A stretch of DNA of 64,000 bases, taken from contig NZ_BDCD01000009.1 of the NCBI RefSeq assembly GCF_001613325.1, forward strand, positions 62,001 through 126,000, written 5' to 3'. This document shows positions 6,246-47,540 of this stretch, in pieces. A model generated the notes under the pieces. That model made no database searches and was not told the DNA's origin. It saw nothing but the letters and a program-made list of their open reading frames with translations. A program made the translations under genes and the position numbers. Numbering within the stretch: position 1 is the stretch's first letter; the number at the start of each line of letters is the position of its first letter. This DNA is from Nocardia yamanashiensis NBRC 100130 (GTDB lineage Bacteria; Actinomycetota; Actinomycetes; Mycobacteriales; Mycobacteriaceae).

Positions 6246-6271
6246 GAGGGCCGGTGCGCCGAGGGCATTCG

Positions 6272-7694: not shown

Positions 7695-7732
7695 AGAGCC
7701 GCAGGTCCATGACCTGCGGCTCTTTGTTTGTT
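7695..7732 (+). terminator. Perfect hairpin with T-rich tail at island edge
   Basis: A 13-bp perfect stem (AGAGCCGCAGGTC at 7695-7707 and its complement at 7711-7723) with a 3-nt loop CAT is followed by TTGTTTGTT on the plus strand. It has the form of a rho-independent terminator, but no plus-strand gene lies upstream of it. It falls exactly where the ligase gene loses homology. Confidence 0.6.
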
Positions 7733-7827
7733 GGCAATGCGCGAACCCGCTAGGCGCCCTACGCAGCATCCGACGTTTTGTAGGCTAGGGCGAGGCATCT
7801 CTCTGGAGTCAGAGCAGGCTGCCCGGC

Positions 7828-8070
7828 TCAAGGCGGCTGTTCCGATTCGTCGAATGCGTTCTCTATCAGGTCTTCTGCCTCGTCCGTGAGCTCGTAAACG
7901 ACGCTCCGCAGTTGACACTCGATCGTGAGCTCACGGGCTCGAGTATGTAACTCGGCCTCGCTGGCTGTGCCGAGTCGAACCATATGGATCAACTCCATAG
8001 CGTCATCGACAAACGGGTTGTAGCCGTGTTCCCGGCACCAATCAAGAGTCCACTTGATAGCAGCTTCCAT
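7828..8070 (-). CDS. Small acidic hypothetical protein
   Basis: An 80-aa protein beginning MEAAIKWTLDWCREHGYNPF and ending in an acidic tail (ELTDEAEDLIENAFDESEQ). It is predicted to be mainly helical, without signal peptide or membrane segment. An in-frame extension to 8178 exists, but its composition (Ser/Arg-rich) does not look like the same protein. It is divergent from the HNH-like gene within the older part of the island. I do not recognise the family; an antitoxin or immunity-like partner is possible only by position and acidity. Confidence 0.5.
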   Translation of the reverse strand: MEAAIKWTLDWCREHGYNPFVDDAMELIHMVRLGTASEAELHTRARELTIECQLRSVVYELTDEAEDLIENAFDESEQPP

Positions 8071-8230
8071 GTCCACGTCCACATGTTCCGCGCTTCGGTT
8101 CGTCGGGACTGAGGAATGACCTTCGGAATGAGCACGGGAGTTGACGCCCCTCGGGCACGTGTTGCGCGACGCAGCCAAGCTCGTCGGCGACTAGCCTGAT
8201 TACGCACAGATCCAGGCGGTACTGTTCGGC

Positions 8231-9631: not shown

Positions 9632-9801
9632 GTCCCAGGGTTGGCGCTACGACGGGCCTGTGTGACCGTTGAACGGTATGGCGTAAGTGGGCCGACGCGC
9701 TCGCCGCACCAAACCGCGACAGCGAGCCACCAATGGGCCAAGACAGGCACGAACGCAATTCTATGGCCATACACTCTGGATATCGCCCTTCGACCGTCAG
9801 C

Positions 9802-9843
9802 GGGTTGGGTTGTGACATGGCGAATTGCGCACCAACCCAACCC
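9802..9843. repeat. 11-bp inverted repeat
   Basis: GGGTTGGGTTG (9802-9812) and CAACCCAACCC (9833-9843) form an 11-bp stem around a 20-nt loop at the start of the left recombinase relic. No T-run follows. It lies in the otherwise gene-free stretch 9632-10236, whose remaining content is the relic and the 85-bp repeat. Confidence 0.5.
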
Positions 9844-10054
9844 AGCTCGCCACCCGCCGTGACCAACTCACCGCCACATTGGCGAACGAACCCACAGCCC
9901 GGAACCCGCGGCGCTGGATGGCGTCGCCGACCACATCGCTGACGTCATCACCACCGGCACCCGTACCCAGGCGAAGGCACTGATCGAGGCTCTCGTCGCC
10001 CAGGTCGGCATCACCGGCCCCGACCGCCTCGTCCCCACCTCTCGCATCCCCTAA
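9820..10054 (+). pseudogene. Serine-recombinase C-terminal relic, left copy
   Basis: A fragment of the C-terminal helical tail of a large serine recombinase. Frame one reads TQLATRRDQLTATLANEPTA; after a frame change it continues LDGVADHIADVITTGTRTQ and ends PTSRIP then TAA. The right copy at 22048-22420 reads the same segment in one uninterrupted frame, so the frameshift here is real relative to its relative. No catalytic domain is present. It marks the former end of the older integrated unit. Confidence 0.75.
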
Positions 10055-10137
10055 CCCGGAAACGACATTGGGGCTGGTACCGCTTCTGCGGTACCAGCCC
10101 CAATGGAGTCGGTTCGTGCAATGACACGATTGGTGGA
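10053..10137. repeat. 85-bp direct repeat, left copy (att-like)
   Basis: Matches 22415-22499 at 84 of 85 positions by eye; the only difference is T/G in the hairpin arm. It runs from the end of the recombinase relic through a hairpin to TGGTGGA, the complement of the tRNA 3' end. After it the two copies diverge completely. It is the probable displaced attachment-site end of the older unit. Confidence 0.85.
10068..10103. terminator. Perfect 16-bp stem hairpin in the left att-like repeat
   Basis: TTGGGGCTGGTACCGC and its exact complement flank the loop TTCT. The same hairpin, with one mismatch, lies directly downstream of the tRNA-Ala 3' end in the right copy, where it could end tRNA transcription. 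It lacks a strong T-run, so an att-site function is equally possible. Confidence 0.6.
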
Positions 10138-10236
10138 CCCGACGGACCAGCACACGAACCGCGCGGTGCTGGTCGACGGGCCGGACATCATGATCAGGGC
10201 GGTCGGCGCGCGGCGAACGGTCGGCGGTGATGCCCG

Positions 10237-11499
10237 ATGAACGGCCATCACGACAACACGGCTGCGGATGGGGTGGCGTTTGGTGGCGCGGATGGGTCGT
10301 CGGATGCTCGGCGTCCTATAGCCGCCACCCCAAACGCCGAACACGGCTACCGCGTCCGCGCCGCTCAACACCTTGATCAGGGCTGTGGGTCGAAATCCCG
10401 ACTCAATATCAATACTCATACAAACTCATACCTCCGGCGGCGTGGCGTCCGCGCCGTCCACTGTGGCGGGCACCCGGACGCGGGCCCGTGGTTCCGTCTG
10501 CTCAACCGTGACCGACGTCTGCTTGCGATTCTGGCCGAACACAAGGTGCTCACCACCGACCAGATCGCCGCCCTGGAATTCACCTCGACCCGCCGTGCAC
10601 AAGACCGGCTGCGGAAGCTGCGTGAGATGGGCATGCTGTTCGCCTTCCGTGAATCGCTCTACGGCGGCGGCACCAGCCAAACCCGCCACGCCCTCGGCTA
10701 TCTCGGAGTACGTCTCATCGCCGCCCAACGCGCCGAGAAACCACCCGCGCCAGGCGTACACGCCCTGATGCTCGAACGACTGGCTTGCTCGCCCACACTC
10801 GCCCACCGCCTCGGAGTCAACGACTTCTTCTGCGCCCTGGCTGCCCGTCGCAACCCCGCCCACCACCGCGACTCCGCTAGCCCGGAGCCGGTGGCCGGGT
10901 TGACCCACTGGTGGTCGGAGCGCCAGTGCACCGATTGCTTCCAACTGGATCTGTACTCCGGAGAAACCGTCGGACTGCGCCCCGACGGGTACGGCTGCTG
11001 GGAACAGCACGATCACACGGTGCGATTCTTCCTCGAATACGACACTGGCACAGAGTCATTGACCACCCTCACCGGCAAACTCGCCGCCTACCAGCGCTTC
11101 CCCACCGACGAGTTCGGCATCCTGCTGTTCTCGCTGCACTCGGCCCGACGCGAGACGGCATTCCGGGCAGCGCTGCACCGAGCGTTATCCGGCTATTACC
11201 CGGGCATCATGATCGCCACCACGGCCCGCGACCATGCGCATCCCGACGGCCCCGCCGGCCCGGTCTGGGCACTGTGGACACCCCAGAGCGGCACCGCCAC
11301 CCAACGAATCCATCTTGCCGACTTACCAGAACGTGGCCCCCGCATCGCCCACCACACCGCCATCAATCAGCCCTACAACGAAGCCGCCTTCAACCCCGAC
11401 GCTCCGGGCATCCGTGCCATTCTCGACTCGAACCGGGCGAGGGCTGGCATAACGGACCTGATCGCGGGTTCTGATCCGTCAGAGCCGATCATCATCTAG
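10237..11499 (+). CDS. Replication-relaxation family protein
   Basis: About 420 aa. The recognisable part begins near residue 85 with LLNRDRRLLAILAEHKVLTT, continues DQIAALEFTSTRRAQDRLRK (a winged-helix-like region) and RHALGYLGVRLIAAQ, and ends in a nuclease-like fold region with FFLEYDTGTESLTTLTGKLA. This matches the Replic_Relax family found on actinobacterial plasmids and integrative elements. The first 80 residues look non-coding and no better in-frame start exists nearer the domain, so the 5' end may be eroded. It supports a plasmid or conjugative-element origin for the inner unit. Confidence 0.75.
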   Translation: MNGHHDNTAADGVAFGGADGSSDARRPIAATPNAEHGYRVRAAQHLDQGCGSKSRLNINTHTNSYLRRRGVRAVHCGGHPDAGPWFRLLNRDRRLLAILAEHKVLTTDQIAALEFTSTRRAQDRLRKLREMGMLFAFRESLYGGGTSQTRHALGYLGVRLIAAQRAEKPPAPGVHALMLERLACSPTLAHRLGVNDFFCALAARRNPAHHRDSASPEPVAGLTHWWSERQCTDCFQLDLYSGETVGLRPDGYGCWEQHDHTVRFFLEYDTGTESLTTLTGKLAAYQRFPTDEFGILLFSLHSARRETAFRAALHRALSGYYPGIMIATTARDHAHPDGPAGPVWALWTPQSGTATQRIHLADLPERGPRIAHHTAINQPYNEAAFNPDAPGIRAILDSNRARAGITDLIAGSDPSEPIII

Positions 11500-11590
11500 A
11501 ACGACTCCTGAGCCTTCATGTCCCTGGAATCAATTCGGGTCCAGGATCCTATGCCCGTTCGCTCCGTCATCCGAGGGTGCCTACGCGATG

Positions 11591-12964
11591 TCACTCTCCA
11601 TCGGCGGGGCCGGATTCTTGCCCTGCACTTTCGGTTTCGGCTTCCCCGTTCCCGAGTTGCCCTGCCGCCAACCACTCGTTCATCTGCTTTCGTTCGAGTG
11701 CAGACAACCGTTCCGAACGGATGACGCCGTCCGCTCGGATCAATGTGGGCTCGTAGACTCCGTAGTCGGCAAGCAGGTCCGCTGAGATCTTCATAGCGAG
11801 GGACTTCAGCTGGTCGATATCTGTTGTCAATGCCTCCAGGTAGCCGACGTGATGGCACGGTTCACTCGCGTCACTGGTGACCGGTACACCCGGTGTGTAG
11901 TCGGTGCTGCCGTTCGGCGGCGTACGGTCCAGATGGACCTGTGGTGACGATGTAGTGCTGGCCATGACGTCGACGTCGCCATAAGCTCCTGCCCACTCCG
12001 CGTAGGCGGTGGCGAAGTGCAACGCGCACAGCACTCGATGCTCGAGATGGGTCAGGTTGAGCACAGGTGTGCCACCGAGTGCCGCCGCAGTCGCCACCTC
12101 GACCAGCAGCGTGACGCCTCCGTCGGCATGCCAGACAACGCGAATTCCATTCCCGTGGACTTTAATTCGACCGCGCCGAATCTGCGGCGGGTCCGACAGC
12201 AGTGCGTTCGGCAGGACGATGGCAGGCCCGGCACCCGTGTTACACAGCGCGCCGACGAACTTTCTGATATCGCTCAGGAATACTCGGTCGATTCGGCGTT
12301 CGGCGTTAACCGCGGCCACCAGAGACAGGATTAATGTGACGCCATGAGCTTCATCGCTGGCGAGCCACTTCGAGTCGACCGATAGTTGCTTGCGCACGCG
12401 TTCCGCATGCTGCTCTGCCTGCCGAAACCGATCCCTGTAGAGGGTCGCGATCTCAGCTTCGTCAAGCCAGGCGGTGGTGCTGCCGAGCCGACGGGCATAC
12501 CCGTACCGCAGTTGATCCTTCTCCCCCACCCGGCGCACGGCGTGTGGGGCGATGGGGCTACGCGGCACGCCGATCAAAATGTACCCGAGGTCCGGCGTCG
12601 AGGGATCGTCAGTGATCGACCGGATACTGAAATCTGGTGGCAAGAAGGGGAATACCCTGCTTCGCAACCCTTTGACCATAGAATCACAGATGCCCCCAGA
12701 GATGTCGACCGGGGTGAGTCGCACCGCATTGCCCTCGCCGTCTTCGGCGACGCCGACGATGATCAGGCCGCCCCTCGCGTTGGCCATGGCGGTGACGTCC
12801 TTCGCCAGCTCATCAGGGCCCTTGCGGTATCCGTTGTCCTGCTTGAAGTCGAGGTCTGCGTCCTCAGCGATGGATTGAGAGCATAAGCCCACCAGATGAA
12901 TTCGCTCCAGTTGATGAAAGTCTGCCCCCAACACCTGTGCCAGCCTGTGGATTCGAATCGTCAC
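11591..12964 (-). CDS. AlbA_2/Schlafen-type ATP-binding protein
   Basis: A 457-aa protein. Residues about 30-165 form an AlbA_2 (Schlafen-related) domain, with DADLDFKQDNGYRKGPDEL, DVTAMANARGGLIIVGVAED and a YARRLGSTTAWLDEAEI end. The rest has no domain I know; the last 25 residues are low-complexity Glu/Ser/Gly. AlbA_2 proteins are common in defence islands and some act as nucleases or regulators. The gene is divergent from the helicase with 155 bp between start codons, so the two probably share a regulatory region and it may be a fourth component or regulator of the module. Confidence 0.75.
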   Translation of the reverse strand: MTIRIHRLAQVLGADFHQLERIHLVGLCSQSIAEDADLDFKQDNGYRKGPDELAKDVTAMANARGGLIIVGVAEDGEGNAVRLTPVDISGGICDSMVKGLRSRVFPFLPPDFSIRSITDDPSTPDLGYILIGVPRSPIAPHAVRRVGEKDQLRYGYARRLGSTTAWLDEAEIATLYRDRFRQAEQHAERVRKQLSVDSKWLASDEAHGVTLILSLVAAVNAERRIDRVFLSDIRKFVGALCNTGAGPAIVLPNALLSDPPQIRRGRIKVHGNGIRVVWHADGGVTLLVEVATAAALGGTPVLNLTHLEHRVLCALHFATAYAEWAGAYGDVDVMASTTSSPQVHLDRTPPNGSTDYTPGVPVTSDASEPCHHVGYLEALTTDIDQLKSLAMKISADLLADYGVYEPTLIRADGVIRSERLSALERKQMNEWLAAGQLGNGEAETESAGQESGPADGE

Positions 12965-13119
12965 ACCGAAAGACTAGCTGCACAACACTATCCGGCAACG
13001 CCCAATTGTGCTGTGCCAAGTCACTATTCGCATCGTTGCCGCTTGCGCCCGGGAACCGGGCATGTACGATCTTGAACGATCGCCCAGGGTCGGCGATCGT
13101 CGAGGGGAGGCGTCGGCGG

Positions 13120-16100
13120 ATGTCATTCGATCCGCAGCAGTTAGTGGCAGGCGCGCTGGTTCGCCTGCCGGGACAACCCGATCACGAGACCGTGGTTCAC
13201 GTCCGACAGGGCGCCTTCTGGGAATTCGGCCTCGAGAGCCGGGGCGGAAGATACCGCCGGATCAGTTTGCCCGAAGCCGAGCTACCCGGAATCGAAGTCG
13301 TCAGTACCGGCCGGGATAGTAGTTTCGATGCCGATCCCCGGGCGTTCCGCCTCGGCATCGAGGCTCGCCGCATCCGCTCCAGGTTTCAAGACGATATGGG
13401 TGCACTGGCGGTGTCGAGCATCGATCCGCTGCCGCACCAGCTGGAGGCCGTCTACGGCAAGCTGCTGCAGGAGCCACGCCTCCGGTTCCTGCTGGCCGAC
13501 GACCCAGGCGCCGGAAAGACCATCATGACGGGGCTTTACATCAAGGAGCTCCAACTCCGCGATGTGGCCGATCGGGTGCTGATCGTCGCTCCCGCCAACT
13601 TGAGCTTTCAGTGGCAACGCGAATTGGACGAACGCTTCCAGATCCCTGCTCGCCGGATCACCCGGGAAACCCTCGAGTCGGATCCCATGACGAATCCCTG
13701 GGAGCAGGACGGCGTATTCATCGTCTCCCGCGATCTGCTGAAGACGAAGTCGATGCTGGATTCTTTCACCGCTGCTCAACGACCCTGGGATCTGGCGGTT
13801 CTCGACGAAGCACACGGGTACACGCTGAAGGTCAAGAGCAGCGGCGCCATCGATTCCCGCACCGATCGGTACAAGGCGGCAGAGCGCGTCGCCAGTCGCG
13901 CCGATCGGCTCCTGCTGCTGACCGCGACACCGCACTCCGGACGGGAGGAATCCATCTGGGCGCTGATGCGACTGCTGGACTCTGATGCTTACGGTGATCG
14001 CTGCCCGGACCTGGTCGAGATAATGCCCCACCACTACTCGCGAACTACCAAGGAGCAGATGGTCGACCTGCGTGGGCGGCCGTTGTTCCGGCCGCGTGTC
14101 GCACATACCGTCACCTACGACCTCGACGGCGCGGAATGGGATCTCTACCAACAGGTTTCATACTTCATCACGCAAGGGCTGGCTCAGATCCGCCGGGAAC
14201 AAGCTGAAGGTGGCGCGCCTTCGGTCTCCGGATTCGCATTGACCACAATGCAGCGACGGTTGGCATCCTCGATCCGCGCCATCACCCGCACCCTCGCCCG
14301 CCGCGTCGAGCGGCTGGAGCGCGAACTCGAGCAACCCGATACTGGCCGATCGGGGCGATTCACCGACGTCGATCCAGATTCGAACAGTGACCGCCCCGAG
14401 GACGAGAAATGGGACATCGAGGAACAAGCACTGGATCAGGTACCGGGGTTCCGCAGTCGCGAGGAGCTGGAAGCCGAGCTCGAACTGCTTCGACCGCTGC
14501 TCATACGGGCACAGGAAACCGAGCGACTCGATACCGAGACCAAATTCGGTGAACTCTGGACGATCCTGGAAACCTACGGGGTCGGAGACGACCCGTCGAA
14601 GAAGCTTCTCATTTTCACCGAGCATCGGGACACTCTGGACTTCCTCGTCGAGAAGCTCAGGACGAGATTCACCGTCGCGACGATCCACGGCAAGATGCGG
14701 CCGGCCGAGCGTGTGGCCGCCGAACGCGCGTTCCGCGAGACAGCGCAGATCATGGTGGCCACCGAAGCCGCGGGTGAAGGTATCAACCTGCAGTTCTGCC
14801 ATTTGATGGTCAACTATGACATTCCGTGGAACCCCAATCGTCTTGAGCAACGTATGGGCCGGATCCACCGCATCGGCCAGACCGAAGACGTCCACATTTT
14901 CAACTTCGTCGCCGCCAACACCAAGGAAGGCAGGGTACTCGCGACTGTGCTGGGCAAGCTCGAGGCCATGCGGCGCAACGAGCTGCTTGGTGATCAGATC
15001 TTCGATGTGGTCGGGGAAATCCTGTCCGGGTATCGCTTGCGGGATCTGCTGGAATCGGTGATATCTGAACAGCGCACGCCCAGCGAAGTACTCGCAGTGC
15101 TCGGCGCCGACAACGGCCGCTTCGACGAACGCATCATTGCACGGATGCAAGAACTGTCCGAGAAAGCGCTGGCAACCGGGCATATCGACTGGCAGTTACA
15201 CCGTCGAGCCACAGGCCGCGCCGAGGAACGCCGCCTCGCCCCCGGCTATCTCGCCCGGTTCTTCCTGGATGCGGTCGACTACCTGGGTGGTCGCGCCGAG
15301 GAGCGGCTCGATCGCGCCAGTCTCCGAGTGGTGAGTACACCGGACATCCTGATTGCGCGCGACCGCGACCGTGGTGGTGTCCGCCAGCTGCAGCCCCGGT
15401 ACGAGCGCATCACCTTCGACAAAGGCGTCGCGACCAATCCGGTGGCGCAGGACGCGGAGGTCGGCGCACCGCGCCCGGAGCTCTGCGGGCCGGGCCATGT
15501 CTTGTTCGATGCGCTACTCGAATACCTCACCGAGAGAACAGATCAAGATCTGGAACGAGGCGCCGTGTTCCATGACTCCACGCTCGACGGTCCAGCGCTG
15601 CTGCACGTGCTGGAGGGACAGGTCTTGGACGGGCACGGCAGTACCGTGCACCGCGGTATGGCATGCGTTCTCGAACACGATGGGCAGTTCCAGACGATCG
15701 GCGGCGTGCTGTACGACCTCGCCCTCGGCGCCGGGGCCGCGGATATCGGGGCGCCGCCGCAACTCCCGGTGGAGAGCCTGACTGACTGGGCGCGCGCCAA
15801 TGTCTATGAAGAGCAGGTGCGCCAGGTGCTCGCGCGCCACGAACGCACTGCCGACATCCAAGAAGACTTTCTCCATGCTTCGTTCAGCACCCTGCTAGCG
15901 CGAATCGATATGGAACTCCTCGCTATCGAAGCCGAGGTCGACAACGGCGTAAACGGGGCAGGAGGCCGGCTGCGCCGGACTTTGATACAGCGCCGGACCG
16001 CGGAGGAACGGCGCGATCGGCGTATCGCCGACACCGTCCGCACGCGTGTAATTGATCGGGGGCCCGTCACGCTCGTCGCCCAGGCGCTGATGTTGCCTGG

Positions 16101-16545
16101 GCAGGGTCACGACTGGAGCTCACCGGCCGACGGCGCTGTCCGCGACGTCGTCGACGTCGCCCGCCGGGTCGCCATCGATCATGAAAACGATTGTGGTACC
16201 GAGGATCTCCGCCAGGCGGATGCCGAAGGTCTCGGCTTCGATCTGGTCTCGGAGCGGCCAGACGGCACCCGATACATTCAAGTAAAAGGGCAGGCGGGTA
16301 TCGGCGACATAGAGATGACGTGGTCGGAATACATTGCGGCACAGAAGTTCGGGCGAATGTACTGGCTGTACGTGGTCCTCGACTGCGCGACTCCTACTCC
16401 ACGGATGTACTGCGTGCGCGATCCCGCGACAACTTTGGCCGGCAATATCCAACCCACCCGGGATGTTCGGTACTCCGTCCCCCTCGGGGTGGTCGTCGAC
16501 CGGGCACATGACGAAACCGAGGACACTTCGTGCGACGCGCGCTGA
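13120..16545 (+). CDS. SNF2-like helicase with C-terminal DUF3883-like domain
   Basis: A 1141-aa superfamily-2 translocase, first gene of the presumed antiphage operon. Motifs in order are Walker A LADDPGAGKTIMTGLY (about residue 125; PGAGKT is unusual, as most relatives have GLGKT), DEAH VLDEAHGY (about 227), LLLTATPHSG (about 267), and motifs V-VI EGINLQFCHL and EQRMGRIHRIGQ (about 575). The last 100 residues contain GTRYIQVKGQAGIGDIEMTW and EYIAAQKFGRMYWLYVV, a DUF3883-like domain with restriction-endonuclease-like features. ATG 13120 has a good ribosome site (GAGGGGAGG, 13102-13110). The longer reading from 12937 overlaps the divergent gene and is rejected. The stop overlaps the methyltransferase start by 16 bp. 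Confidence 0.9.
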   Translation: MSFDPQQLVAGALVRLPGQPDHETVVHVRQGAFWEFGLESRGGRYRRISLPEAELPGIEVVSTGRDSSFDADPRAFRLGIEARRIRSRFQDDMGALAVSSIDPLPHQLEAVYGKLLQEPRLRFLLADDPGAGKTIMTGLYIKELQLRDVADRVLIVAPANLSFQWQRELDERFQIPARRITRETLESDPMTNPWEQDGVFIVSRDLLKTKSMLDSFTAAQRPWDLAVLDEAHGYTLKVKSSGAIDSRTDRYKAAERVASRADRLLLLTATPHSGREESIWALMRLLDSDAYGDRCPDLVEIMPHHYSRTTKEQMVDLRGRPLFRPRVAHTVTYDLDGAEWDLYQQVSYFITQGLAQIRREQAEGGAPSVSGFALTTMQRRLASSIRAITRTLARRVERLERELEQPDTGRSGRFTDVDPDSNSDRPEDEKWDIEEQALDQVPGFRSREELEAELELLRPLLIRAQETERLDTETKFGELWTILETYGVGDDPSKKLLIFTEHRDTLDFLVEKLRTRFTVATIHGKMRPAERVAAERAFRETAQIMVATEAAGEGINLQFCHLMVNYDIPWNPNRLEQRMGRIHRIGQTEDVHIFNFVAANTKEGRVLATVLGKLEAMRRNELLGDQIFDVVGEILSGYRLRDLLESVISEQRTPSEVLAVLGADNGRFDERIIARMQELSEKALATGHIDWQLHRRATGRAEERRLAPGYLARFFLDAVDYLGGRAEERLDRASLRVVSTPDILIARDRDRGGVRQLQPRYERITFDKGVATNPVAQDAEVGAPRPELCGPGHVLFDALLEYLTERTDQDLERGAVFHDSTLDGPALLHVLEGQVLDGHGSTVHRGMACVLEHDGQFQTIGGVLYDLALGAGAADIGAPPQLPVESLTDWARANVYEEQVRQVLARHERTADIQEDFLHASFSTLLARIDMELLAIEAEVDNGVNGAGGRLRRTLIQRRTAEERRDRRIADTVRTRVIDRGPVTLVAQALMLPGQGHDWSSPADGAVRDVVDVARRVAIDHENDCGTEDLRQADAEGLGFDLVSERPDGTRYIQVKGQAGIGDIEMTWSEYIAAQKFGRMYWLYVVLDCATPTPRMYCVRDPATTLAGNIQPTRDVRYSVPLGVVVDRAHDETEDTSCDAR

Positions 16546-37914: not shown

Positions 37915-38087
37915 CGCGCTCAGCGCCTGCGAGATCGTGCCCTGCCGTGTCAGGTCGGTGATCTGCTCGGGCCGATAGGCGCTGTTGAGTTCCGCCTAGT
38001 TCGGACCCTGACACGCCGATTGGGGCGATGCTGTGGGTGGGCGCGTCGCTGAGCGGCAATGCGGGTGATCTTGGATACCGTTCGGGA

Positions 38088-39185
38088 ATGGGGTTGACCA
38101 GCTGGGTTGCGGGGGTCGCGGCCGGACTGTCGATCGTGGTGAGTGGGGCTGGGACGGCTGTTGCGGAGCCGGATTCGGTGGTGGGGGTGCAGGTGGGGGT
38201 TACCACCATGCATTTGGTGGATGGGCAGCGGGCGGATCCTTGGCGGCGGGGGGCGCGGCGGGAACTGATTGTCACGATGCACTATCCGGCGGTGGGCGGG
38301 GGGTCTTATCCGGTGGCCGACAATCGGCTGGTCGGGTTGCCGCAGCCGCTGGTGGCGGCGCGGGCGCGGGTGGGTGCGCCGGCGGCGGGCGGGGCGAGAA
38401 CGCTTCCGGTGGTGTTGTTCTCGCCGGCGGTGGGGTTCCCCGCGCGCACCGGGACTTCGATGGCCGAGGATCTGGCGGGGCGCGGGTATGTGGTGGTGTC
38501 GGTGGAGGACACGCATGGCGCGTTGCCCGGCACGGTGCTGCCGGACGGGCGGGTCGAGTGGTACGACCTGCGCAATCTGACCGATATTCGTGCGGCGGTG
38601 CGTACTTCGTCGGAGGCGCGCGCCGGAGATATCCGGTTCGTGCTCGACGAATTGACGGCCATGGCGGACGGCGGGCATCGGACACTGCCGACCGGATTGG
38701 CCGCGGCGATGGATCCGGGGCGGGTGGGCATGGTCGGTCATTCGCTGGGCGGGACCATGGCGGTGGTCGGCGACGCGCGCATTCGCGCGGGTATCGACCT
38801 GGACGGCTATCCGCCGCCGTCGTATCTGGCCCCCGGGCTGGTCGCCGATCCGCAGCGGCCCCTGCTGTTCCTGTTCGGCGACACCCCGGATCCGGAGGTG
38901 CGCCGGAAGTCGATCGATCAGCTGCTGGCCGGCCGTACCGGGTGGACGCGCCGCCTCGCACTCGCGGGCGCGGGGCACTGGTCGTTCTGCGATATCGCCT
39001 TCGCGCCGCGGGTGATCACCGAATCTCCGCTGCTCACCAGGGCATTCGGCACCATCGGCCCGGAGCGGGCGCACCTGGTGACCAGAACGTACGTGGCGGC
39101 CATGTTCGATCGCTTCCTGCGCGGGCTGCCCGCCCCGGAGCTGGATGCGCCCGATCTCTTCCCGGAGGTCAGCCCCGCACCTTGA
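38088..39185 (+). CDS. Secreted alpha/beta-hydrolase (lipase/PAF-acetylhydrolase-like)
   Basis: A 365-aa exported esterase. The signal peptide is MGLTSWVAGVAAGLSIVVSG with cleavage near AVAEPD. The nucleophile elbow is GMVGHSLGGTMA, the oxyanion region is VVLFSPAVGF, an acidic residue lies in LFGDTPD, and the catalytic His is probably in GAGHWSFCD. This pattern resembles dienelactone-hydrolase or PAF-acetylhydrolase-type lipases. ATG 38088 is preferred because it starts the signal peptide. It is convergent with the MMPL gene, with stops overlapping by 17 bp. Confidence 0.82.
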   Translation: MGLTSWVAGVAAGLSIVVSGAGTAVAEPDSVVGVQVGVTTMHLVDGQRADPWRRGARRELIVTMHYPAVGGGSYPVADNRLVGLPQPLVAARARVGAPAAGGARTLPVVLFSPAVGFPARTGTSMAEDLAGRGYVVVSVEDTHGALPGTVLPDGRVEWYDLRNLTDIRAAVRTSSEARAGDIRFVLDELTAMADGGHRTLPTGLAAAMDPGRVGMVGHSLGGTMAVVGDARIRAGIDLDGYPPPSYLAPGLVADPQRPLLFLFGDTPDPEVRRKSIDQLLAGRTGWTRRLALAGAGHWSFCDIAFAPRVITESPLLTRAFGTIGPERAHLVTRTYVAAMFDRFLRGLPAPELDAPDLFPEVSPAP

Positions 39186-41307
39186 CTGCGTCCTCGGACT
39201 CGAATACCTGTGCGGGAACGGGCTTCCGGCGTGCCGCAAGCGGGGCCCACCAGTTCGCCGGTCCCATCAGCTTGACCAAGGCCGGGACCAGCAGCATGCG
39301 GACCAGGGTGGCGTCGATGATCAGGGCGATGACCATGCCGAGTCCGAGGAAACGCATCGGTGTCAGCGGCGAGAGCGTGAATGCGCCGGTGATGAGAACG
39401 AGAAGCGTTGCGGCGGCAGTGATCACGCGGGCCGTCTGCACGGTCCCGGTGTGAACGGCTTGCTCGGTGTCCGCCCCGGCATCGTGCGCCTCCACCATGC
39501 GGGAGAGCAGGAAGACCTCGTAGTCGGTGGAGAGGCCGAACACCACCGCGATGATGAGGACGAGCATCCCGGCGGAGAGCGGGCCGGGGCTGACGGCCAG
39601 CGCGCTGGCCAGATGCCCCTGGTCGAAGATCCAGGTCAGGACGCCGAAGGTGGCGGCCAGACTGAGAAAGGCCATGAAAACGGCCTTGATCGGCAGGACC
39701 ACCGACCGGAACGCCAGCGCCAGCATGAGCAGGGTGGCGGCGACCATGACGATGAGCATGAGAGGGAGCCGGGACAGGACGGCGGTGACACTGTCCGCCG
39801 TCGCCGCGCTCTCGCCGCCGACCCGCAGGTCCAGGCCGTCGATGGCGAGCGCTCGGAGCCGGTGGACGGTGTCCTGGGAGGCGGGGGAGCGGTCGGGGGT
39901 GGTGAGTGCCGCGTGAATTACGGCGGTGTCGTCCCGGGTTTCCAGGTGCAGCGCCTGTTTGACGCCGGGGACGCCGCCGATTTCGCGGAGCGCCTTGGTG
40001 ATTGCCGTGGATGGCAGTGGGCTGCCGTCGGATTCGCGGATCAGGATGGTCGCACCGCTGTTGGCGGCGGGGAAGCGAGAGGTCAATTCCTCTACCGCGG
40101 CGCGGGTTTCGTTGCCGGCGGGCAGGGCCGTGTGGTCGACGTCGCCGAGACGGACGCTGGTCACCGGCGCGGCCAGGACGAGCAGGATCGCACCGACCAC
40201 GATCGCGACCGTGCCGGGGCGGCGCATCACCGCCGTCACGACACGCCCCCAGAAACGCTGGGCGCGCGCTTCGGAACGCTCGAAAGCGTCCGCGCGCCAA
40301 CTCCATTTGCCGATGCGCGGGCCGAGCAGCACGAGCGCGGCCGGCAGCGCGGTGACCGACAGCAGCGCCGCCAGCGCCACGGCGGCGATCGCACCGAAGC
40401 CCAGCGAGCGCAGGACCGCCTGCGGGAAGACGAACGTACCCGCGAACGCGCAGATCAGCAGTAGCGCCGAGAACAGCACCGTGCGCCCGGCGGTGTGCAG
40501 CGTGCGGGCGATGGCCTCGGTTGGCGTGCGACCCTGCCCGAGCTCCTCCCGGTACCGCCCGACCACGAAAAGCCCGTAGTCGATGGCCAATCCGAGCCCG
40601 AGCAGCGACACCACGTTCATGGCGAAGATGCTCACCTCGGTGAACCGCGCCAGCAGGCCCACCGTGCCCAGCGCGCCCACCACTGCCAGGGACCCGACCA
40701 GTACGGGCAGCGACGCCGCGACCACGCCGCCGAACACCAGTACGAGCACCAGCGCCGTCAGCGGAATCGAAATCGACTCGGCGACGATCAGATCGTGCCG
40801 GGACTGCGTGCTGATCGCGTCCGCGAGCGCGCTGTACCCCGTCAGCTTCGTATCGACCCCCGGCACGCGAAGATGCTCGGCCAGTTCGGGATACACCGCG
40901 ATCCGCCGATTGTCGTCACCGGCCGCGAACACCACCGCGACGGCCTGCCGCCCGTCCGCCGAGCGCAGGTACTGCTGCCGTGAACTGTTCCAATAACTCT
41001 CGACCGGCCGATCCAGCAGCGCCGGATCGATCCGTCCCACGGCGGCGGTCACCTGCGGGCCGATATCGGCGAGCGACTTCCCTTCGGGCGCAGTGTAAAT
41101 AGCGATCACGTCCGGGTTCTGCGGCCCCAGCCGCTCCTTCACCCACTGATCCACCGCACTGGATTCCCCACCCGGATCGGTGAACCCGGCCGCACTCACC
41201 CGCTCCGCCAGCCCGGTCCCGAACAGCCCGCACGCCAGCGCGAACAACACCGCCGCCACCAGCACCGTCTTCGGCCGGGCGACCACCAGTCGCGCCCACG
41301 TAGTCAT
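39169..41307 (-). CDS. MMPL/RND-family exporter
   Basis: A 712-aa membrane transporter with two sets of about six helices, each preceded by a large external loop. The second helix bundle of each half has the proton-relay type sequence seen in MMPL proteins (LGLGLAIDYGLFVVGRYREE and VVFGLSTDYEVFLLSRMVEA). In mycobacteria such proteins export lipids. It is the last gene of the minus-strand beta-lactone operon, 50 bp after the acyltransferase, so export of the lipid product is a natural inference. Confidence 0.87.
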   Translation of the reverse strand: MTTWARLVVARPKTVLVAAVLFALACGLFGTGLAERVSAAGFTDPGGESSAVDQWVKERLGPQNPDVIAIYTAPEGKSLADIGPQVTAAVGRIDPALLDRPVESYWNSSRQQYLRSADGRQAVAVVFAAGDDNRRIAVYPELAEHLRVPGVDTKLTGYSALADAISTQSRHDLIVAESISIPLTALVLVLVFGGVVAASLPVLVGSLAVVGALGTVGLLARFTEVSIFAMNVVSLLGLGLAIDYGLFVVGRYREELGQGRTPTEAIARTLHTAGRTVLFSALLLICAFAGTFVFPQAVLRSLGFGAIAAVALAALLSVTALPAALVLLGPRIGKWSWRADAFERSEARAQRFWGRVVTAVMRRPGTVAIVVGAILLVLAAPVTSVRLGDVDHTALPAGNETRAAVEELTSRFPAANSGATILIRESDGSPLPSTAITKALREIGGVPGVKQALHLETRDDTAVIHAALTTPDRSPASQDTVHRLRALAIDGLDLRVGGESAATADSVTAVLSRLPLMLIVMVAATLLMLALAFRSVVLPIKAVFMAFLSLAATFGVLTWIFDQGHLASALAVSPGPLSAGMLVLIIAVVFGLSTDYEVFLLSRMVEAHDAGADTEQAVHTGTVQTARVITAAATLLVLITGAFTLSPLTPMRFLGLGMVIALIIDATLVRMLLVPALVKLMGPANWWAPLAARRKPVPAQVFESEDAVKVRG

Positions 41308-41357
41308 CAAGCACTCCGATCGGTATTGCTGCGCTGCCATTCGGGCGTGCTGCTCCA

Positions 41358-42545
41358 TCAGCTCACGCTGGTATCCGCTTCCGCCAGTTCGGTTTCCAAG
41401 GTGCGGACGATGCGGTCCAGCAGCGCGTCGAGTCGCTCCTCGATGCCCCGCCCGTTGCGCGCCGACACCGTGAGCTCGGTGCGCCCGCCACCTTCCGTCA
41501 TACCGATGAGCAGCGGCATGGCGACGCTGTGCTGCGGCAGGATACGGATAGAGATTGGCGTGAAACCGGGTACGGCGAGGGCGTCGTAGTCGTAGCGGCC
41601 CATGTGGGAGACGGTGGCGGAGGCCAGGTTTCGTCCCCAACGGGAGCCGAGCGCGTTCAGCGTGTGCAGCAGTCCGCGACCCACAGCCGGCGGCAGCGCG
41701 GTGAGCCCGCCATTGTCCATCTGGTCGAGTTCCCGGCGTTCCCGCAGCCCGGTGCGCTTGATCTCGGCGATCTCCTGCCAGGTCATACCGGGCGTGGCAT
41801 CGATGAAGAGCGGCAGCGCCAGGTTCCCGGTAGACCGGACCGAGGGATCGTGGCGGCGCAGATCCACCGGCACCATGATGCGGGAGACCGGTCCGCCTTC
41901 GGAGGCGAGCACGGCCGCGACCCGTTCCAGCGCCCCGCGCCCGGTGGCCGCGATGGTGCGGTGCCGCAAGAGATGCCGGTGCACGCCCGGCTCCTGCCGC
42001 CCGCGCCCGGTGGCGGAGCGATAGCGCGGCAGCATGAGCGTCGGCCGCCCGGGCGCTCCGACCTTGCGCACCAGTTCGGCATCGGCGATGGGATCGGGCG
42101 CGCCGAGCGGTTCCTCCCCGCGCAGCACCCGCAGCACATCGGTGAACCACATGATCAGTCCCATGCCGTCCATGACGCCGTGGAAGACCCGGAACACCAG
42201 CGTGGTGGTGTCGCCGGTCAGCAGCAGCAGTTCGACGGTCGCGTCCGGCGTCGGCCCGATCGGCGAGGTCAGCACCGGATCGCCTTCCAGCAGCGGGTAT
42301 TCCAGGCGATGCTCGAGCACCCGCACCGCCGGCGCCACCCCGCTGTCCACCCAGTACTTCCCGTCCCGCACCAGGCGCGCACCGGGATTCGCGGCCGCCG
42401 CCACGGCGACCGCGCGCCGCAACTGCTCGGCGTCGATCGTGCCGACGCCTTCGACGGCCAGTTGCATGAGGAACGGCGGAGCAAGATCCCGCATGGGGAA
42501 GTAGATGAGTTCGGTGGGGGTGATGGGTCGGCGGAAGGTGCTCAC
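41358..42545 (-). CDS. Condensation-domain-like acyltransferase
   Basis: A 395-aa protein of the chloramphenicol-acetyltransferase/condensation superfamily. The catalytic HxxxDG motif is present (VFRVFHGVMDGMGLIMW, about residue 120). A second conserved region VPVDLRRHDPSVRSTGNLAL resembles the PapA and WES/DGAT branch, which transfer acyl groups to alcohols. It lies 34 bp downstream of the epimerase gene in the beta-lactone operon. It could esterify a hydroxyl on the lactone product; this is inference from position and fold only. Confidence 0.7.
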   Translation of the reverse strand: MSTFRRPITPTELIYFPMRDLAPPFLMQLAVEGVGTIDAEQLRRAVAVAAAANPGARLVRDGKYWVDSGVAPAVRVLEHRLEYPLLEGDPVLTSPIGPTPDATVELLLLTGDTTTLVFRVFHGVMDGMGLIMWFTDVLRVLRGEEPLGAPDPIADAELVRKVGAPGRPTLMLPRYRSATGRGRQEPGVHRHLLRHRTIAATGRGALERVAAVLASEGGPVSRIMVPVDLRRHDPSVRSTGNLALPLFIDATPGMTWQEIAEIKRTGLRERRELDQMDNGGLTALPPAVGRGLLHTLNALGSRWGRNLASATVSHMGRYDYDALAVPGFTPISIRILPQHSVAMPLLIGMTEGGGRTELTVSARNGRGIEERLDALLDRIVRTLETELAEADTSVS

Positions 42546-42579
42546 GATTCCCTCTCCTGCACGGCGGCCGGCGAACCGG

Positions 42580-43623
42580 CTACCGCAGCTCCTTGGTCAA
42601 TTCCACGACGCCGCCCTGGGTTTCGAGCCAGGCCAGGAACTCGGTGAGTCCGGTGGCTCGATCCACGACCGCGCGATAGCCGAAATCCCGGGCGGCGGCC
42701 GAGGTGTCGTAGGTGGCGGTGCGGGTCATCAGCGCCACCACGTACCGCGACAGCGGCGGCGACCAGCGGGTGGCGACATACGGTATGCGCCAGATGGTTT
42801 CGATGAGCGCGACCGCCGCGTTCACCACGACGGGATTGGGCTGCCGTGACGGCGGTGCGTACCCGAGCCCGCTCGCCACCTCGCCCAGGAAGCCCCAGAC
42901 ATCGGTCTGCTCGGCGTCGGCGATGAAATACGCCTTCCCGCCGACGTTCTCGGAGCCCGCCGCCTTGACGGCCGCGTCCACGATATTGTCCACATGGCAC
43001 AGCGAGGCGTACACCTTGTTGCCGAACGACAGGTCCGGCAGGCTGCCCGCCGCCGCCCGGCTCAGCAGCCGCACGATCGGCCCGGACCGGTCACCCGCGC
43101 CCCAGATGGCGCGCGGCCGCAGCGCGGTGGTGATGAAACCGTCCGTATTCGCCGCCAGCACAGCGCGTTCCGCCGCCGCTTTGGTCTCGGAGTACAGGTT
43201 CAGGTACCGGGTCGGATAGGGCAGCGATTCGTCCACGTTCACCTGGTCGCCGCCGTCGCGGTCCATGAGCGCGCTGGGGCTGGAGATGAACACGAACCGG
43301 GAAGCCCCGTTGCGGCGCGCGGCGCGCAGCAGCGATTCGGTGGCCGTCAGGTTCTCGGCCACGAACTGCGCTCGCGTGCCCCGTTCGTCCACCCGCGCGG
43401 CGCTGTGGAACACCACGTCCACGTCCTTGGTGGCGCGTTCCAGCGAAACCTGGTCGGTGAGATCGCCGGTGATCACCTCGATCCGGTCGATCACCTCCTC
43501 CAGATCCCGCAGCTTGCTGCTCGCCCGGGCGAGGATCGCGACCTCGTATTCGCCGTCCGCCACCAGCCGGCGCACGATCGCCCCGCCCAGGAACCCGGAC
43601 GCCCCGGTCACCAGCGCCTTCAT
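42580..43623 (-). CDS. nltD: NAD(P)-dependent beta-ketoacid reductase, OleD/NltD-like
   Basis: A 347-aa extended SDR. The nucleotide motif is LVTGASGFLGGAIVRRL, the catalytic YxxxK is in LYSETKAAAERA, and the Ser is in FISSPSAL. In OleD-type pathways this enzyme reduces the 2-alkyl-3-ketoacid made by OleA to the 2-alkyl-3-hydroxyacid that OleC closes to a beta-lactone. ATG 43623 overlaps the preceding stop (ATGA). The symbol is by analogy with the nocardiolactone cluster and needs a homology check. Confidence 0.82.
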   Translation of the reverse strand: MKALVTGASGFLGGAIVRRLVADGEYEVAILARASSKLRDLEEVIDRIEVITGDLTDQVSLERATKDVDVVFHSAARVDERGTRAQFVAENLTATESLLRAARRNGASRFVFISSPSALMDRDGGDQVNVDESLPYPTRYLNLYSETKAAAERAVLAANTDGFITTALRPRAIWGAGDRSGPIVRLLSRAAAGSLPDLSFGNKVYASLCHVDNIVDAAVKAAGSENVGGKAYFIADAEQTDVWGFLGEVASGLGYAPPSRQPNPVVVNAAVALIETIWRIPYVATRWSPPLSRYVVALMTRTATYDTSAAARDFGYRAVVDRATGLTEFLAWLETQGGVVELTKELR

Positions 43624-43889
43624 GCCGCCTCCTGCGTCTTCCACCAGGTGAGCCCGAAAATCTGGGTCAGCACCGCGGTTTCGACGGCCGACCGGTCACC
43701 GCCCTCGGCGGCGCGCAGCGCGGCGGGAATCTGCGCCGCGTGCACCACGATGCTCAGGAACGCGTCGATCCACCACACGGCGCGCAGGAATCGATTGGCG
43801 GGCGCGCGCTTCGCCAGCACCGCCACCAGCCCGGCGAACAGGTACAGCCAGCCGAGTACCGGAACAGCCCGCAGCACAACAGTTCTCAT
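43620..43889 (-). CDS. Small two-helix membrane protein in beta-lactone operon
   Basis: An 89-aa protein with two hydrophobic segments (VLGWLYLFAGLVAVLA and DAFLSIVVHAAQIPAALRA). It is locked between the ligase and the epimerase by 4-bp overlaps on both sides, so its stoichiometric co-production looks deliberate. I do not recognise the family. It may anchor the soluble enzymes or deliver the product to the MMPL exporter. Confidence 0.65.
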   Translation of the reverse strand: MRTVVLRAVPVLGWLYLFAGLVAVLAKRAPANRFLRAVWWIDAFLSIVVHAAQIPAALRAAEGGDRSAVETAVLTQIFGLTWWKTQEAA

Positions 43890-45571
43890 TTTCCCTCGTC
43901 CTTTCCAAGCTGGCCCGTAGCCCAGACGGCCAGCTGTTCCCGGCCGATCTTGGCATTGTGGCGGATGTCGACCGGGAACTCCGGGTGGAACAGGAAAACC
44001 GAAACCGCTTGGGTAACTTCGAATTCCAGCGCCAGCTTGCGCAGTTCCACCGATACGGAGTCCGGGTCGGCTCCGGCTTCCAGTTCCACGCACAGCACCG
44101 GCTGCTGCTCACCGCGCGCGCCGACGCCGACCAGCGCGGTGCGCGCCACGCCGTCGACCGTGTTGAAGACCTGTTCGACCTGCACACTGAACATGGGCCC
44201 GGCCGCGGTCTCCACCCGCTGACTCTTGCGCCCGCAGAACCAGATCCGGCCTTCGTCGTCGATCCAGGCCAGATCCCCGGTGCGATGCCAGACGGTCTCA
44301 CCGTCGCGGATCTTGCCCGCGATATTCGCCGTCCGGGGCCAGTAGTACTCGGTGCTCACATTCGGCCCCGCCACCACCAGCTCCCCGATGCCGCGCGTGC
44401 GCACCAGATCGGCTTCGCGCGCCGCCGCCTGCTCCCAGGTCGGCAGCGGTTCTTCGGTGATCGCGACCAGCCGCGCCCGCACCCCCTCCGCCGGCCGTCC
44501 GATGCAGGTGCCTTCCCCGCGATGGGCGCGCTCGACCAGCCCTCCCAGCAGCTCCCGCGATTCGATGGTCGACATGGGCAGCGCTTCGGTGGAACCGTAT
44601 CCGGCGTGCACCTGCGCGTCCTCGGCCAATACCCGCCGCAGCCCGGCGATGCACCAGTCCGGGACGGGCGCGCCACCGGAGTAGATGCTGTGCAGCGTGG
44701 GCAGTTGCGTGCCGGTGCGCTCCAGATGCCGCAGCAGCGGGATCAGCACGGCGGGGGAGGCGAACATGGTGCGCACCCCGAACCGGTTGATCGCGTCGGC
44801 CACGTGCGCCGGATCGGTGGAGCCGACCGCGCTCGGAATGAGCGGCGGCAGCACGCAGCGCGAACCCATCAGCATGTCGAGAATGCCGACCAGCGGCAGG
44901 GTGATCAGCGAGGTGCCGGGCGCGACCCGATCGCGGGCGGCATCCACCTGATCGACCATGGCGCTGAGATTGCCGTGCGTCATCTGAACGGCCTTGGCGG
45001 GCCCGGTGCTGCCGGTGGTGAAGGCGATGAGCAGCGGCGCGTCCGCCGGTGCGGGCTCCGGAAGCTGCTGCGACACAGCGCCGTTCGGTTCGCGGCCCCA
45101 GCTCGCCAGGGTCGGTCCGCCCCAGCCCCAGCGGCGGCCGACCGTGACGACGGTGCGCACGTCCTTGAAGTAGCGGCGGAACGCCACCCGCGCGGCGTGC
45201 GCGGCCGGAATCCCGATGAACGCCTCCGCGTCGGCGGCGCGCAGGCAGCGCAGCATTTTGCGCACGCCCATGCCCGGGTCGATCACCACGGGCACCGCGC
45301 CGATCTTCAACAGCCCCAGCATGATCGCGTACAGCTCGGGGCTGGGCAGCACCAGCACGATGGTGCGGGTGCCGGTGCCGACCCCGGCGGCGGTGAGCCG
45401 CTGGGCGATGGTGTCCGACCAGCGATCCAGCTCGCGATAGGTGAGCCGCCGGTAGTCGGGCAGGCCCGCGGCGGTGGTGCCGTCCGGGTAGATGACGGCT
45501 TCCCGCTCGGGCTCCGCGGCCACGACCGCCCGGAAGCGGTCGATGGCCTGCCAGTAGGTCGCCACGGTCAC
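43886..45571 (-). CDS. nltC: Beta-lactone synthetase, OleC/NltC-like AMP-ligase
   Basis: A 561-aa adenylate-forming enzyme. The P-loop is AFTTGSTGPAKAVQMTHGN, the A5 motif is GYGSTEALPMS, and the hinge is HRTGDLAWIDDEGRIWFCGR. The C-terminal HPEFPVDIRHNAKIGREQL is the sequence I associate with OleC proteins rather than acyl-CoA ligases. OleC converts a beta-hydroxyacid and ATP to a beta-lactone. It starts at GTG in a GTGA overlap with the nltB-like gene and ends overlapped with the small membrane protein gene. Confidence 0.85.
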   Translation of the reverse strand: MTVATYWQAIDRFRAVVAAEPEREAVIYPDGTTAAGLPDYRRLTYRELDRWSDTIAQRLTAAGVGTGTRTIVLVLPSPELYAIMLGLLKIGAVPVVIDPGMGVRKMLRCLRAADAEAFIGIPAAHAARVAFRRYFKDVRTVVTVGRRWGWGGPTLASWGREPNGAVSQQLPEPAPADAPLLIAFTTGSTGPAKAVQMTHGNLSAMVDQVDAARDRVAPGTSLITLPLVGILDMLMGSRCVLPPLIPSAVGSTDPAHVADAINRFGVRTMFASPAVLIPLLRHLERTGTQLPTLHSIYSGGAPVPDWCIAGLRRVLAEDAQVHAGYGSTEALPMSTIESRELLGGLVERAHRGEGTCIGRPAEGVRARLVAITEEPLPTWEQAAAREADLVRTRGIGELVVAGPNVSTEYYWPRTANIAGKIRDGETVWHRTGDLAWIDDEGRIWFCGRKSQRVETAAGPMFSVQVEQVFNTVDGVARTALVGVGARGEQQPVLCVELEAGADPDSVSVELRKLALEFEVTQAVSVFLFHPEFPVDIRHNAKIGREQLAVWATGQLGKDEGK

Positions 45572-46479
45572 GCGGCGGCTCCCACCGGCGCCGGGAGGCG
45601 ATAGACCACCGCCGCGGCGGACGGACCGGCGCCGGCGGCGACGAACAGAACATGCTCGTACTCGCGCAGTTCGTCCGCCTCGGCGGCCAGGTCGTACGCC
45701 AGCGGCAGCGCCGCGGTGTGCGGATCGCCCTGGGACAGATCGGGCCGGAAGACCGCTTCGGACCGGATGCCGAGCGAGTCGGCGAGCTCGGCCGGGAAGC
45801 TGTCGCTCGGCGTGGACGCGATGAGAGCCGTTGTGCCCGGGTCGATTCCGGCTTCGGCGAGCGCGGTGCGGCCCACCTCGGCGGCCAGTTCGAGCAGCCT
45901 GGCCTCGAAGTCGGGCTCGCGCTCCACGGTCATCAGCTCACGCCCGCGATTGCCCATGGTGTTCACGTCCACGTAGGACTGCACGCCCGGCGTACCCGGT
46001 GCGGTGAGGGTGTGCACCCGGCCGAACCCCTCGGGCTCGTCGGTGCGCTCCAGCAGCAGCGCGGCACCCGCTGTGGCATAGGGGAATTCGTCATCGGCGG
46101 CAGCCCGCTGCAGCGACGGATGGGTATCCCCGGACACGATCAGCACATGCGACGCGCTGCCGGTCTCCAGCACCGACTGCGCCACCTGCACCGCGTTCAG
46201 CACGCCGACGCCGGCGTTCATCAGGTCGAAGGAGAACGAGCGCGGATCGGACTTCTCGTAGTCCAGCCCGATTCCGGCGGCCTTCTGGATCAGCGCCGAC
46301 ACTGCGGGCTCCACGGTATTGGAATCGCGGAAGATGCCCGCGTTGATCAGCACGCCGACCTGGTCGGGCCGAATCTCCGCCCGTTCCATGGCCTGTCGCG
46401 CCGCCCGCGCCGACAGCTCGACGATGCTGTACTCGTCCGTGGCCCGGCCGACGCCGGTGGATTTGATGCGCACACCCAT
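45568..46479 (-). CDS. nltB: KAS III-like partner lacking the active Cys, NltB-like
   Basis: A 303-aa thiolase-fold protein. The segment that carries the nucleophile in its neighbour (DLSNACAG) reads DLMNAGVG, so the Cys is replaced by Gly at residue 90, and clear His and Asn partners are not seen. A Glu aligned with the condensation Glu of OleA is kept (SNTVEPAVSAL, residue 58). This fits the LstA/LstB and NltA/NltB type of heterodimer, in which one chain supplies the Cys and the other a Glu. It lies 8 bp after the NltA-like gene. Confidence 0.82.
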   Translation of the reverse strand: MGVRIKSTGVGRATDEYSIVELSARAARQAMERAEIRPDQVGVLINAGIFRDSNTVEPAVSALIQKAAGIGLDYEKSDPRSFSFDLMNAGVGVLNAVQVAQSVLETGSASHVLIVSGDTHPSLQRAAADDEFPYATAGAALLLERTDEPEGFGRVHTLTAPGTPGVQSYVDVNTMGNRGRELMTVEREPDFEARLLELAAEVGRTALAEAGIDPGTTALIASTPSDSFPAELADSLGIRSEAVFRPDLSQGDPHTAALPLAYDLAAEADELREYEHVLFVAAGAGPSAAAVVYRLPAPVGAAA

Positions 46480-46487
46480 GACAGACC

Positions 46488-47540
46488 TCAGACCTTCAGC
46501 GACGAAATCGTGGTGGACAGGAATCCCGCGACGACGCCGGACGCGGCGGGGACCATGAGCAGCTTGGAGCCGGTGGGAATGGCCTGCTGGCTCAGCTGAT
46601 CGTGCAGGACGATGAAATGCGAAGTGGTGGAAGTGTTCCCGTACTTCTCCAGCACATTCAGATCCGGCGGCATGGGCGCGCCGAACTCGCGTTCGGCAAT
46701 GGCGTTGATGAACGGAATCGCGCCCGCGCCGAACTGGTGGTGAATCATGTAGTCGAAGTTCTCGTCCGCGAACGAACGGCCTTCGCGCTCCAGATATCCG
46801 CCCTGCGTATCGGTCCACAGCAGGAAGCGTGATTCGTTGTGCATCTTGCGGTTGTCGGTGTACAGCGCCACGCCCTGGGACTTGTCGCTGGGCATGCCCA
46901 GGCACAGGTGCGAATACTCCGAGGCGGTGGTGAGCTCGATGTAGTGGATCTTGTCGTTGTCGTCCACGGCCTGGTCGAGCACCACGGCGGCCCCGGAATC
47001 GCCCACGGTTAGCGAGGCGAATTGCAAATCGTATTTCTCGCTGATTTCCGCGACGGCGGTTTCCGCGATGGGTGTGATCGCTTCTCCGCTGACCACAATT
47101 CCGCGGCGCACGGCGCCGGAGCGGATCATGCGATCGAGAATGTAGGTGCCGGTCAGCATTCCGGCGCAGGCATTCGACAGATCGAAGGTGATGACATCGG
47201 CGCGGGCGCCGATCGCCTTCGCGATGGAACCGGCGAAAGACGGTTCCATATACATTTTGGTGCCGTCTTTACTGCGCGTGATCGAGGTCGAGATGATGAC
47301 GTCGATATCGTCGGCCGTGTACTGCGACCTGGAAAGACAGTCCTCGACCGCGTTCATGGCGAGGGTGAACGAGTCTTCGTGATGGTCCGGGCTGGTATCG
47401 CGGAAGCGCCGTTCCTTGACGCCCGTGATGCGTTCGAGATCGAAGCCCGGGGCCTCTTTCAATTGCGCGATGAGTTCTTGGGTGGTGACGCGTTTCGTCG
47501 GCAGATACGCGCCGATCGACTCGAATCGGGAATGCGGCAC
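46488..47540 (-). CDS. nltA: OleA-type KAS III, acyl-CoA head-to-head condensing enzyme (NltA-like)
   Basis: A 350-aa thiolase-superfamily enzyme that would join two acyl-CoAs to a 2-alkyl-3-ketoacid. The triad is present: Cys125 in DLSNACAGML, His267 or His268 in YMIHHQFG, and Asn302 in YGNTSTTS. A Glu at residue 99 lies in the region of OleA Glu117. It is the first gene of a seven-gene minus-strand operon. The promoter must lie in the 370-bp gap shared with the divergent propeller gene. The gene symbol is by analogy. Confidence 0.87.
   Translation of the reverse strand: MPHSRFESIGAYLPTKRVTTQELIAQLKEAPGFDLERITGVKERRFRDTSPDHHEDSFTLAMNAVEDCLSRSQYTADDIDVIISTSITRSKDGTKMYMEPSFAGSIAKAIGARADVITFDLSNACAGMLTGTYILDRMIRSGAVRRGIVVSGEAITPIAETAVAEISEKYDLQFASLTVGDSGAAVVLDQAVDDNDKIHYIELTTASEYSHLCLGMPSDKSQGVALYTDNRKMHNESRFLLWTDTQGGYLEREGRSFADENFDYMIHHQFGAGAIPFINAIAEREFGAPMPPDLNVLEKYGNTSTTSHFIVLHDQLSQQAIPTGSKLLMVPAASGVVAGFLSTTISSLKV

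Follow-up and report, generated by a model that had tools for sequence, protein, structure and literature searches.

What does a fatty beta-lactone operon do with a small membrane protein, an acyltransferase and a transporter of its own? The question is raised by a locus of Nocardia yamanashiensis NBRC 100130, which we analysed within a window of 64,000 nucleotides of contig NZ_BDCD01000009.1 (positions 62,001 to 126,000), from a genome of 9.1 Mb. As the original prediction had it, seven co-oriented genes occupy positions 39169-47540 on the minus strand. All seven open reading frames are intact, and in the direction of reading we call them A, B, C, m, D, T and X. Two starts were corrected, B beginning most likely at the ATG at 46479 and X at the ATG at 41307. 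Compared with N. inohanensis, the nearest relative, each of the seven genes has a dN/dS of 0.06-0.19, indicating purifying selection, and the OleC-type proteins (C) of the window and of N. inohanensis NBRC 100128 are 94% identical. The genes had been described as mostly overlapping by 4 bp. This is the case at B/C, C/m and m/D, three of the six junctions, and not at A/B, D/T and T/X, where gaps of 8, 34 and 50 bases are found. Because 4-bp overlaps recur across the 61 named Nocardia loci (B/C 50/55, C/m 48/56, m/D 50/60, T/X 41/58), the operon from A to X is likely expressed as one transcript; scans for promoter and terminator consensus sequences gave nothing above chance.

The small membrane protein, the acyltransferase and the MMPL protein had been taken for extra genes appended to a nocardiolactone-like operon. 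That view turned out to be wrong, as the order A-B-C-m-D-T-X is the standard form in the genus, complete in 52 of the 61 loci of this type (type 1) in named Nocardia records. Most of the remaining type-1 loci either run into a contig end or contain a C gene whose in-frame insert escaped our filter; in the N. camponoti locus, m and X were not detected. The conserved order, together with the low dN/dS values, argues that the seven-gene arrangement is not due to chance. The insert, seen as split matches, lies near residue 160-170 of the OleC-type protein in a Nocardia subgroup (loci L088-L094, L145 and L151-L153, also genome G011 and others), and the window's copy lacks it.

The nocardiolactone part of the prediction stands. 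The nlt cluster of N. brasiliensis, a nocardiolactone producer, has the A, B, C and D gene types in common with the window, and both N. brasiliensis OleC loci, in strains NBRC 14402 and IFM 10847, carry the full seven genes in identical order, differing from the window in sequence (64-81% identity per gene). By synteny and gene content, the window operon is thus Nocardia's standard seven-gene fatty beta-lactone operon, of the nocardiolactone type, and some species of the genus making this compound class are human pathogens. A survey of 2020 counted 36 nocardiolactone clusters in Nocardia, six of which antiSMASH had first labelled lipstatin-type, and in the accessible text of that survey we found no mention of an acyltransferase, a transporter or an NRPS origin for the operon (PMC7413640). 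The operon itself is of a known type, and what our sequence comparisons add is the identity of T as a lipstatin-type synthetase domain.

The four lactone-building assignments of the original prediction, an OleA-type pair with OleC and OleD homologues, hold by profile matches. The Ole and Lst pathways proceed through condensation, reduction and ring closure. A (46488-47540, 350 aa) and B (45568-46479, 303 aa) are KAS III proteins (PF08545/PF08541), NltA/LstA-type and NltB/LstB-type respectively. In A, the catalytic residues are C125, H268 and N302, with E99, and the spacing of the Cys-His-Asn triad (143, 34) equals that of LstA, whose triad is C128, H271 and N305 and whose partner LstB has an essential glutamate, E60 (PMC12141560). 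In B, the active-site Cys is replaced by Gly or Ala, as in all the type-1 and type-2 loci examined, and Glu57, which corresponds to LstB E60, is kept, so that both the LstA triad and the LstB glutamate are matched in the window. One subunit with Cys-His-Asn and another without the Cys fit the nlt-type pairing. In the paralogous type-2 loci, the Glu is missing from A but retained in B, which supports a mixed active site in which the A and B sites complement each other.

C (43886-45571, 561 aa) is assigned as an OleC/NltC-type beta-lactone synthetase by profile scores and by its tree. The OleC-containing family NF006754 (cut-off 478) matches it at 592.7 bits and the Xanthomonas OleC model at 502 bits, the best long-chain acyl-CoA ligase model giving 145 bits. 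These scores bear on the suggestion that C is an ordinary acyl-CoA or acyl-AMP ligase and that the operon yields an olefin or a simple 3-hydroxy acid. C does fall under the strict Xanthomonas and Shewanella OleC equivalog cut-offs (900 and 850 bits), but its scores on OleC models greatly exceed those on every acyl-CoA ligase model, and in the tree, a check proposed along with the prediction, it groups with OleC-like proteins, apart from the FadD proteins and NRPS adenylation domains of the genome (SH-aLRT 100) and not with acyl-CoA synthetases. An olefin would moreover call for OleB, the decarboxylase that would yield it (PMC7064751), and an oleB gene is neither next to C, nor fused to it, nor in the conserved operon. 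We consider this suggestion extremely improbable. D (42580-43623, 347 aa) has as its best model OleD, the 2-alkyl-3-oxoalkanoate reductase, which it matches at 192.5 bits against a strict cut-off of 580, and is assigned as an OleD/NltD-type enzyme.

The expected lack of OleB was confirmed by profile searches of the operon, none of its seven genes encoding an alpha/beta hydrolase. Compared with bacterial oleABCD olefin clusters, the Nocardia operon shares OleA, OleC and OleD homologues but lacks oleB and has its KAS III split into two unlike subunits. A hydrolase gene next to X on the plus strand (38028-39185) was considered as OleB-like or as an immunity gene and rejected, being PAF-acetylhydrolase-like and absent beside other loci.

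T (41358-42545, 395 aa), a standalone condensation-domain-like acyltransferase, matched no Pfam or NCBIfam family, and its origin was revealed by comparison with Rhodococcus. There the operon reads A-B-C-m-D, then a synthetase made of T, adenylation and PCP domains, then a formyltransferase and X, an MMPL protein, and is collinear with that of Nocardia. Identities between Rhodococcus sp. H-CA8f and the window are 69, 56, 64, 53 and 68% for A, B, C, m and D, and 58% for X, and T is 54% identical to residues 8-389 of the H-CA8f NRPS. R. qingshengii TG-1 carries a plasmid-borne operon like that of H-CA8f, and the NRPS-bearing order was also found in genomes of further genera of the family. Gene for gene, the Rhodococcus plasmid operons (NZ_CP023721.1, NZ_CP077418.1) differ from that of Nocardia in that the place of the lone T is taken by a complete T-adenylation-PCP synthetase and a formyltransferase; between D and X of the window, a search of open reading frames and Pfam revealed neither an adenylation nor a PCP domain, and no N-formyltransferase was found in the operon. 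Both Rhodococcus loci lie on large plasmids, with cmrA, a chloramphenicol efflux gene, a few genes away.

In a tree of 51 T domains, the 29 standalone T proteins form one clade (100/99) nested among NRPS domains, inside a group with the unlinked NRPS domains of Nocardia (95/92). The tree is rooted on two distant NRPSs, on which the position of the root depends, and one Nocardia NRPS (L243) forms a very long branch. By this phylogeny T is the first, condensation domain of a lipstatin-type, LstE-like synthetase, left standing alone.

The resemblance extends to the lipstatin (lst) operon of Streptomyces toxytricini, which, like the Nocardia operon, has LstA/LstB-type residues, OleC and OleD homologues and no OleB. 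The lst operon reportedly also encodes a formyltransferase and an NRPS. The counterpart of T is the condensation-type domain found in LstE-like NRPSs from related genera, which, rather than the S. toxytricini LstE, are the proteins compared. The Nocardia operon differs from lst in having neither adenylation and carrier domains nor a formyltransferase, and in adding m and an MMPL exporter. Judged by its genes, the Rhodococcus-type operon is of the lipstatin type plus an exporter, and such full lipstatin-like operons with exporters stand uncharacterised in Rhodococcus and related genera. Given the 54% identity of T to the NRPS domain and the place of the standalone clade inside the synthetase domains, the Nocardia operon resembles a trimmed lipstatin-type operon, one that has kept the condensation domain of its synthetase and shed the amino-acid-loading machinery. 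The simplest reading is a single truncation that left the condensation domain where it was and removed the formyltransferase along with the adenylation and carrier domains. Gene-for-gene synteny would thus connect nocardiolactone with lipstatin, from which the drug orlistat derives.

LstE-like genes of other arrangements were also found. In the same genome, an unlinked LstE-like T-adenylation-PCP synthetase is followed by a formyltransferase (locus L208, G000:C48:25000-44999, positions 9445-13307). Six of the seven Nocardia genomes with an unlinked LstE-like synthetase also have an OleC gene with no T beside it (type 2 where read), and the two loci may work together. In another family of the order, two loci (L196, L197) hold a single OleA-type KAS III, a P450 (by Pfam in L196), OleC, OleD and a T-adenylation-PCP synthetase. 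T-like domains, 36-38% identical, start single-module NRPSs outside lactone operons in Streptomyces plasmid records (L248, L249 and others), for example adjoining a type I polyketide synthase.

The descent of T from the condensation domain of an LstE-like synthetase makes ester formation the leading idea for its function. The HxxxDG motif reads HGVMDG in T of the window, and across 88 standalone T proteins it is HGVMDG in 87 and HAVMDG in one; the AlphaFold model of T (pLDDT 90) has a condensation-domain/acyltransferase fold. A point against an ester step is that the closest fold is the C-domain-like dehydratase AzeD (Z 32.4, about 6 units above the next match) and that the second Foldseek match is a dehydrating AmbE domain. 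T might then form no ester and instead carry out a dehydratase-like or other modification of the acyl chain, for example removal of the 3-hydroxyl, leaving a plain dialkyl beta-lactone for X to export. Nocardia does lack the adenylation and carrier domains by which the acyl donor was supplied, and the title of the isolation paper, as given in the reference list of PMC7064751, calls nocardiolactone a 'dialkyl-substituted beta-lactone' and names no ester, which fits such a product; if the pathway ends at the dialkyl lactone, T must do something else. The identity to AzeD is just 17%, however, and the model also matches ordinary NRPS condensation domains (Z about 25), PapA5 (1q9j, Z 24.8) and alcohol acyltransferases well, condensation domains and PapA5 covering a range of Z 24-32. 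The nearest relatives of T in sequence belong to adenylation- and PCP-bearing NRPS modules adjoining a formyltransferase, which is the setting of ester formation in lipstatin, and the HxxxDG motif is kept throughout. We therefore regard a dehydratase-like role as unlikely and retain ester formation as the favoured function of T.

X (39169-41307, 712 aa) matches the MMPL profile. It scores 515 bits against the NCBIfam equivalog for MmpL3 (cut-off 1400), a cut-off that the best MmpL3-like proteins of the genome miss too. X and the MMPL proteins of the NRPS-bearing operons form one clade (SH-aLRT 100), whose sister group (SH-aLRT 99) consists of four MmpL3-like proteins from the genome of the window. 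This separate position argues against X being the MmpL3 of the genome; X is probably a dedicated transporter. The pairing with T recalls mycobacterial PapA and MmpL pairs (e.g. PapA5/MmpL7), in which an HxxxDG acyltransferase of the same fold stands beside an MMPL exporter of surface lipids; the Nocardia T differs in belonging to a lactone operon and in deriving from an NRPS condensation domain, not from the PapA family.

The likeness of X to the MmpL3 group, which moves mycolate lipids, and the existence in the genus of type-2 lactone loci with neither T nor X would agree with T, X and m being passengers, co-transcribed with the lactone genes and serving another lipid. The distribution of T speaks against it. 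Among 148 Nocardia genomes, an OleC-type gene is present in 111 and a standalone T in 101; T adjoins an OleC gene in 100 of its 103 copies, in two of the three exceptions T and OleC are on different contigs, the OleC gene lying close to a contig end, and no genome has T without C. Added to this, the collinear order recurs in Rhodococcus and other genera, where T is an NRPS domain, and X of both operon forms is one clade, so that we find the passenger reading improbable. The sister position of X to the MmpL3-like clade can also be read in another way. The chemistry of OleA and OleD leads to a 2-alkyl-3-hydroxy acid, the skeleton of mycolic acids. The beta-lactone could be an activated, mycolate-like donor whose ring T opens, passing the 2-alkyl-3-hydroxyacyl group to a sugar or lipid, with X exporting the conjugate to the envelope. 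But free nocardiolactone has been isolated from Nocardia strains (PMC7413640), and the relatives of T are domains of lipstatin-type synthetases, where the lactone stays closed; a role of the lactone as acyl donor is thus very improbable.

Between C and D lies m (43620-43889), a conserved helical protein of about 90 residues (90 in the window), probably membrane-bound. It belongs to no Pfam or NCBIfam family, and comparison of its structural model with the PDB gave no meaningful match. Both the type-1 operon and the NRPS-bearing operons have it, as do 7 of 15 named type-2 loci; since type-2 loci carry neither T nor X, m goes with the C and D enzymes and not with export.

Taken together, the favoured reading, to which we give a probability of roughly 0.58, is that the product of the operon is a long-chain beta-lactone that is acylated and exported. 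A heterodimer of A and B would join two fatty acyl-CoAs, A giving the Cys-His-Asn triad and B the glutamate, and one of the two acyl-CoAs probably bears a 3-hydroxyl, as in lipstatin. In the order that we infer, D would then reduce the beta-keto group and C close the beta-lactone ring, which would be kept, there being no OleB in the operon. T would esterify the chain hydroxyl with a fatty acyl or similar donor, on CoA or a carrier; a non-aminoacyl donor is suggested by the loss of the amino-acid-loading domains and the formyltransferase. m probably serves as a membrane anchor for the C and D enzymes, and X would carry the product out of the cell. The reading predicts an overlooked acyl-ester step, performed by a standalone condensation domain and coupled with a dedicated exporter.

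Further lactone-type loci were found. The 15 named type-2 loci have neither T nor X, and one of this kind is present in the N. yamanashiensis genome itself (L047, G000:C49:14000-33999, positions 9832-16180), with divergent B-A and C-D pairs and an OleC 72% identical to C of the window. It is followed by a conserved alpha/beta hydrolase and flanked by genes for a LuxR-type regulator and a secretory lipase. The nucleophile of OleB is an Asp; the hydrolase conserved beside type-2 loci has a Cys (GNCFG/GHCFG) and was rejected as OleB on that ground. In some Nocardia, type-3 loci (L085, L086, L201-L204) consist of A-B-C-D with an adjoining MMPL gene and no T or m. The MMPL proteins of these more distant loci form a clade separate from X, so there are at least two lineages in which an MMPL gene neighbours OleABCD genes. 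Next to P450-like genes, and distant from any OleC gene, lies a second standalone T (L245, G132:C1, 6949-8298). Finally, a genome with no close OleC has a diverged lactone-type locus (L244, G006:C1, about 2976-8879) carrying relatives of B, D and m together with an AMP-ligase and an acyltransferase-like gene.
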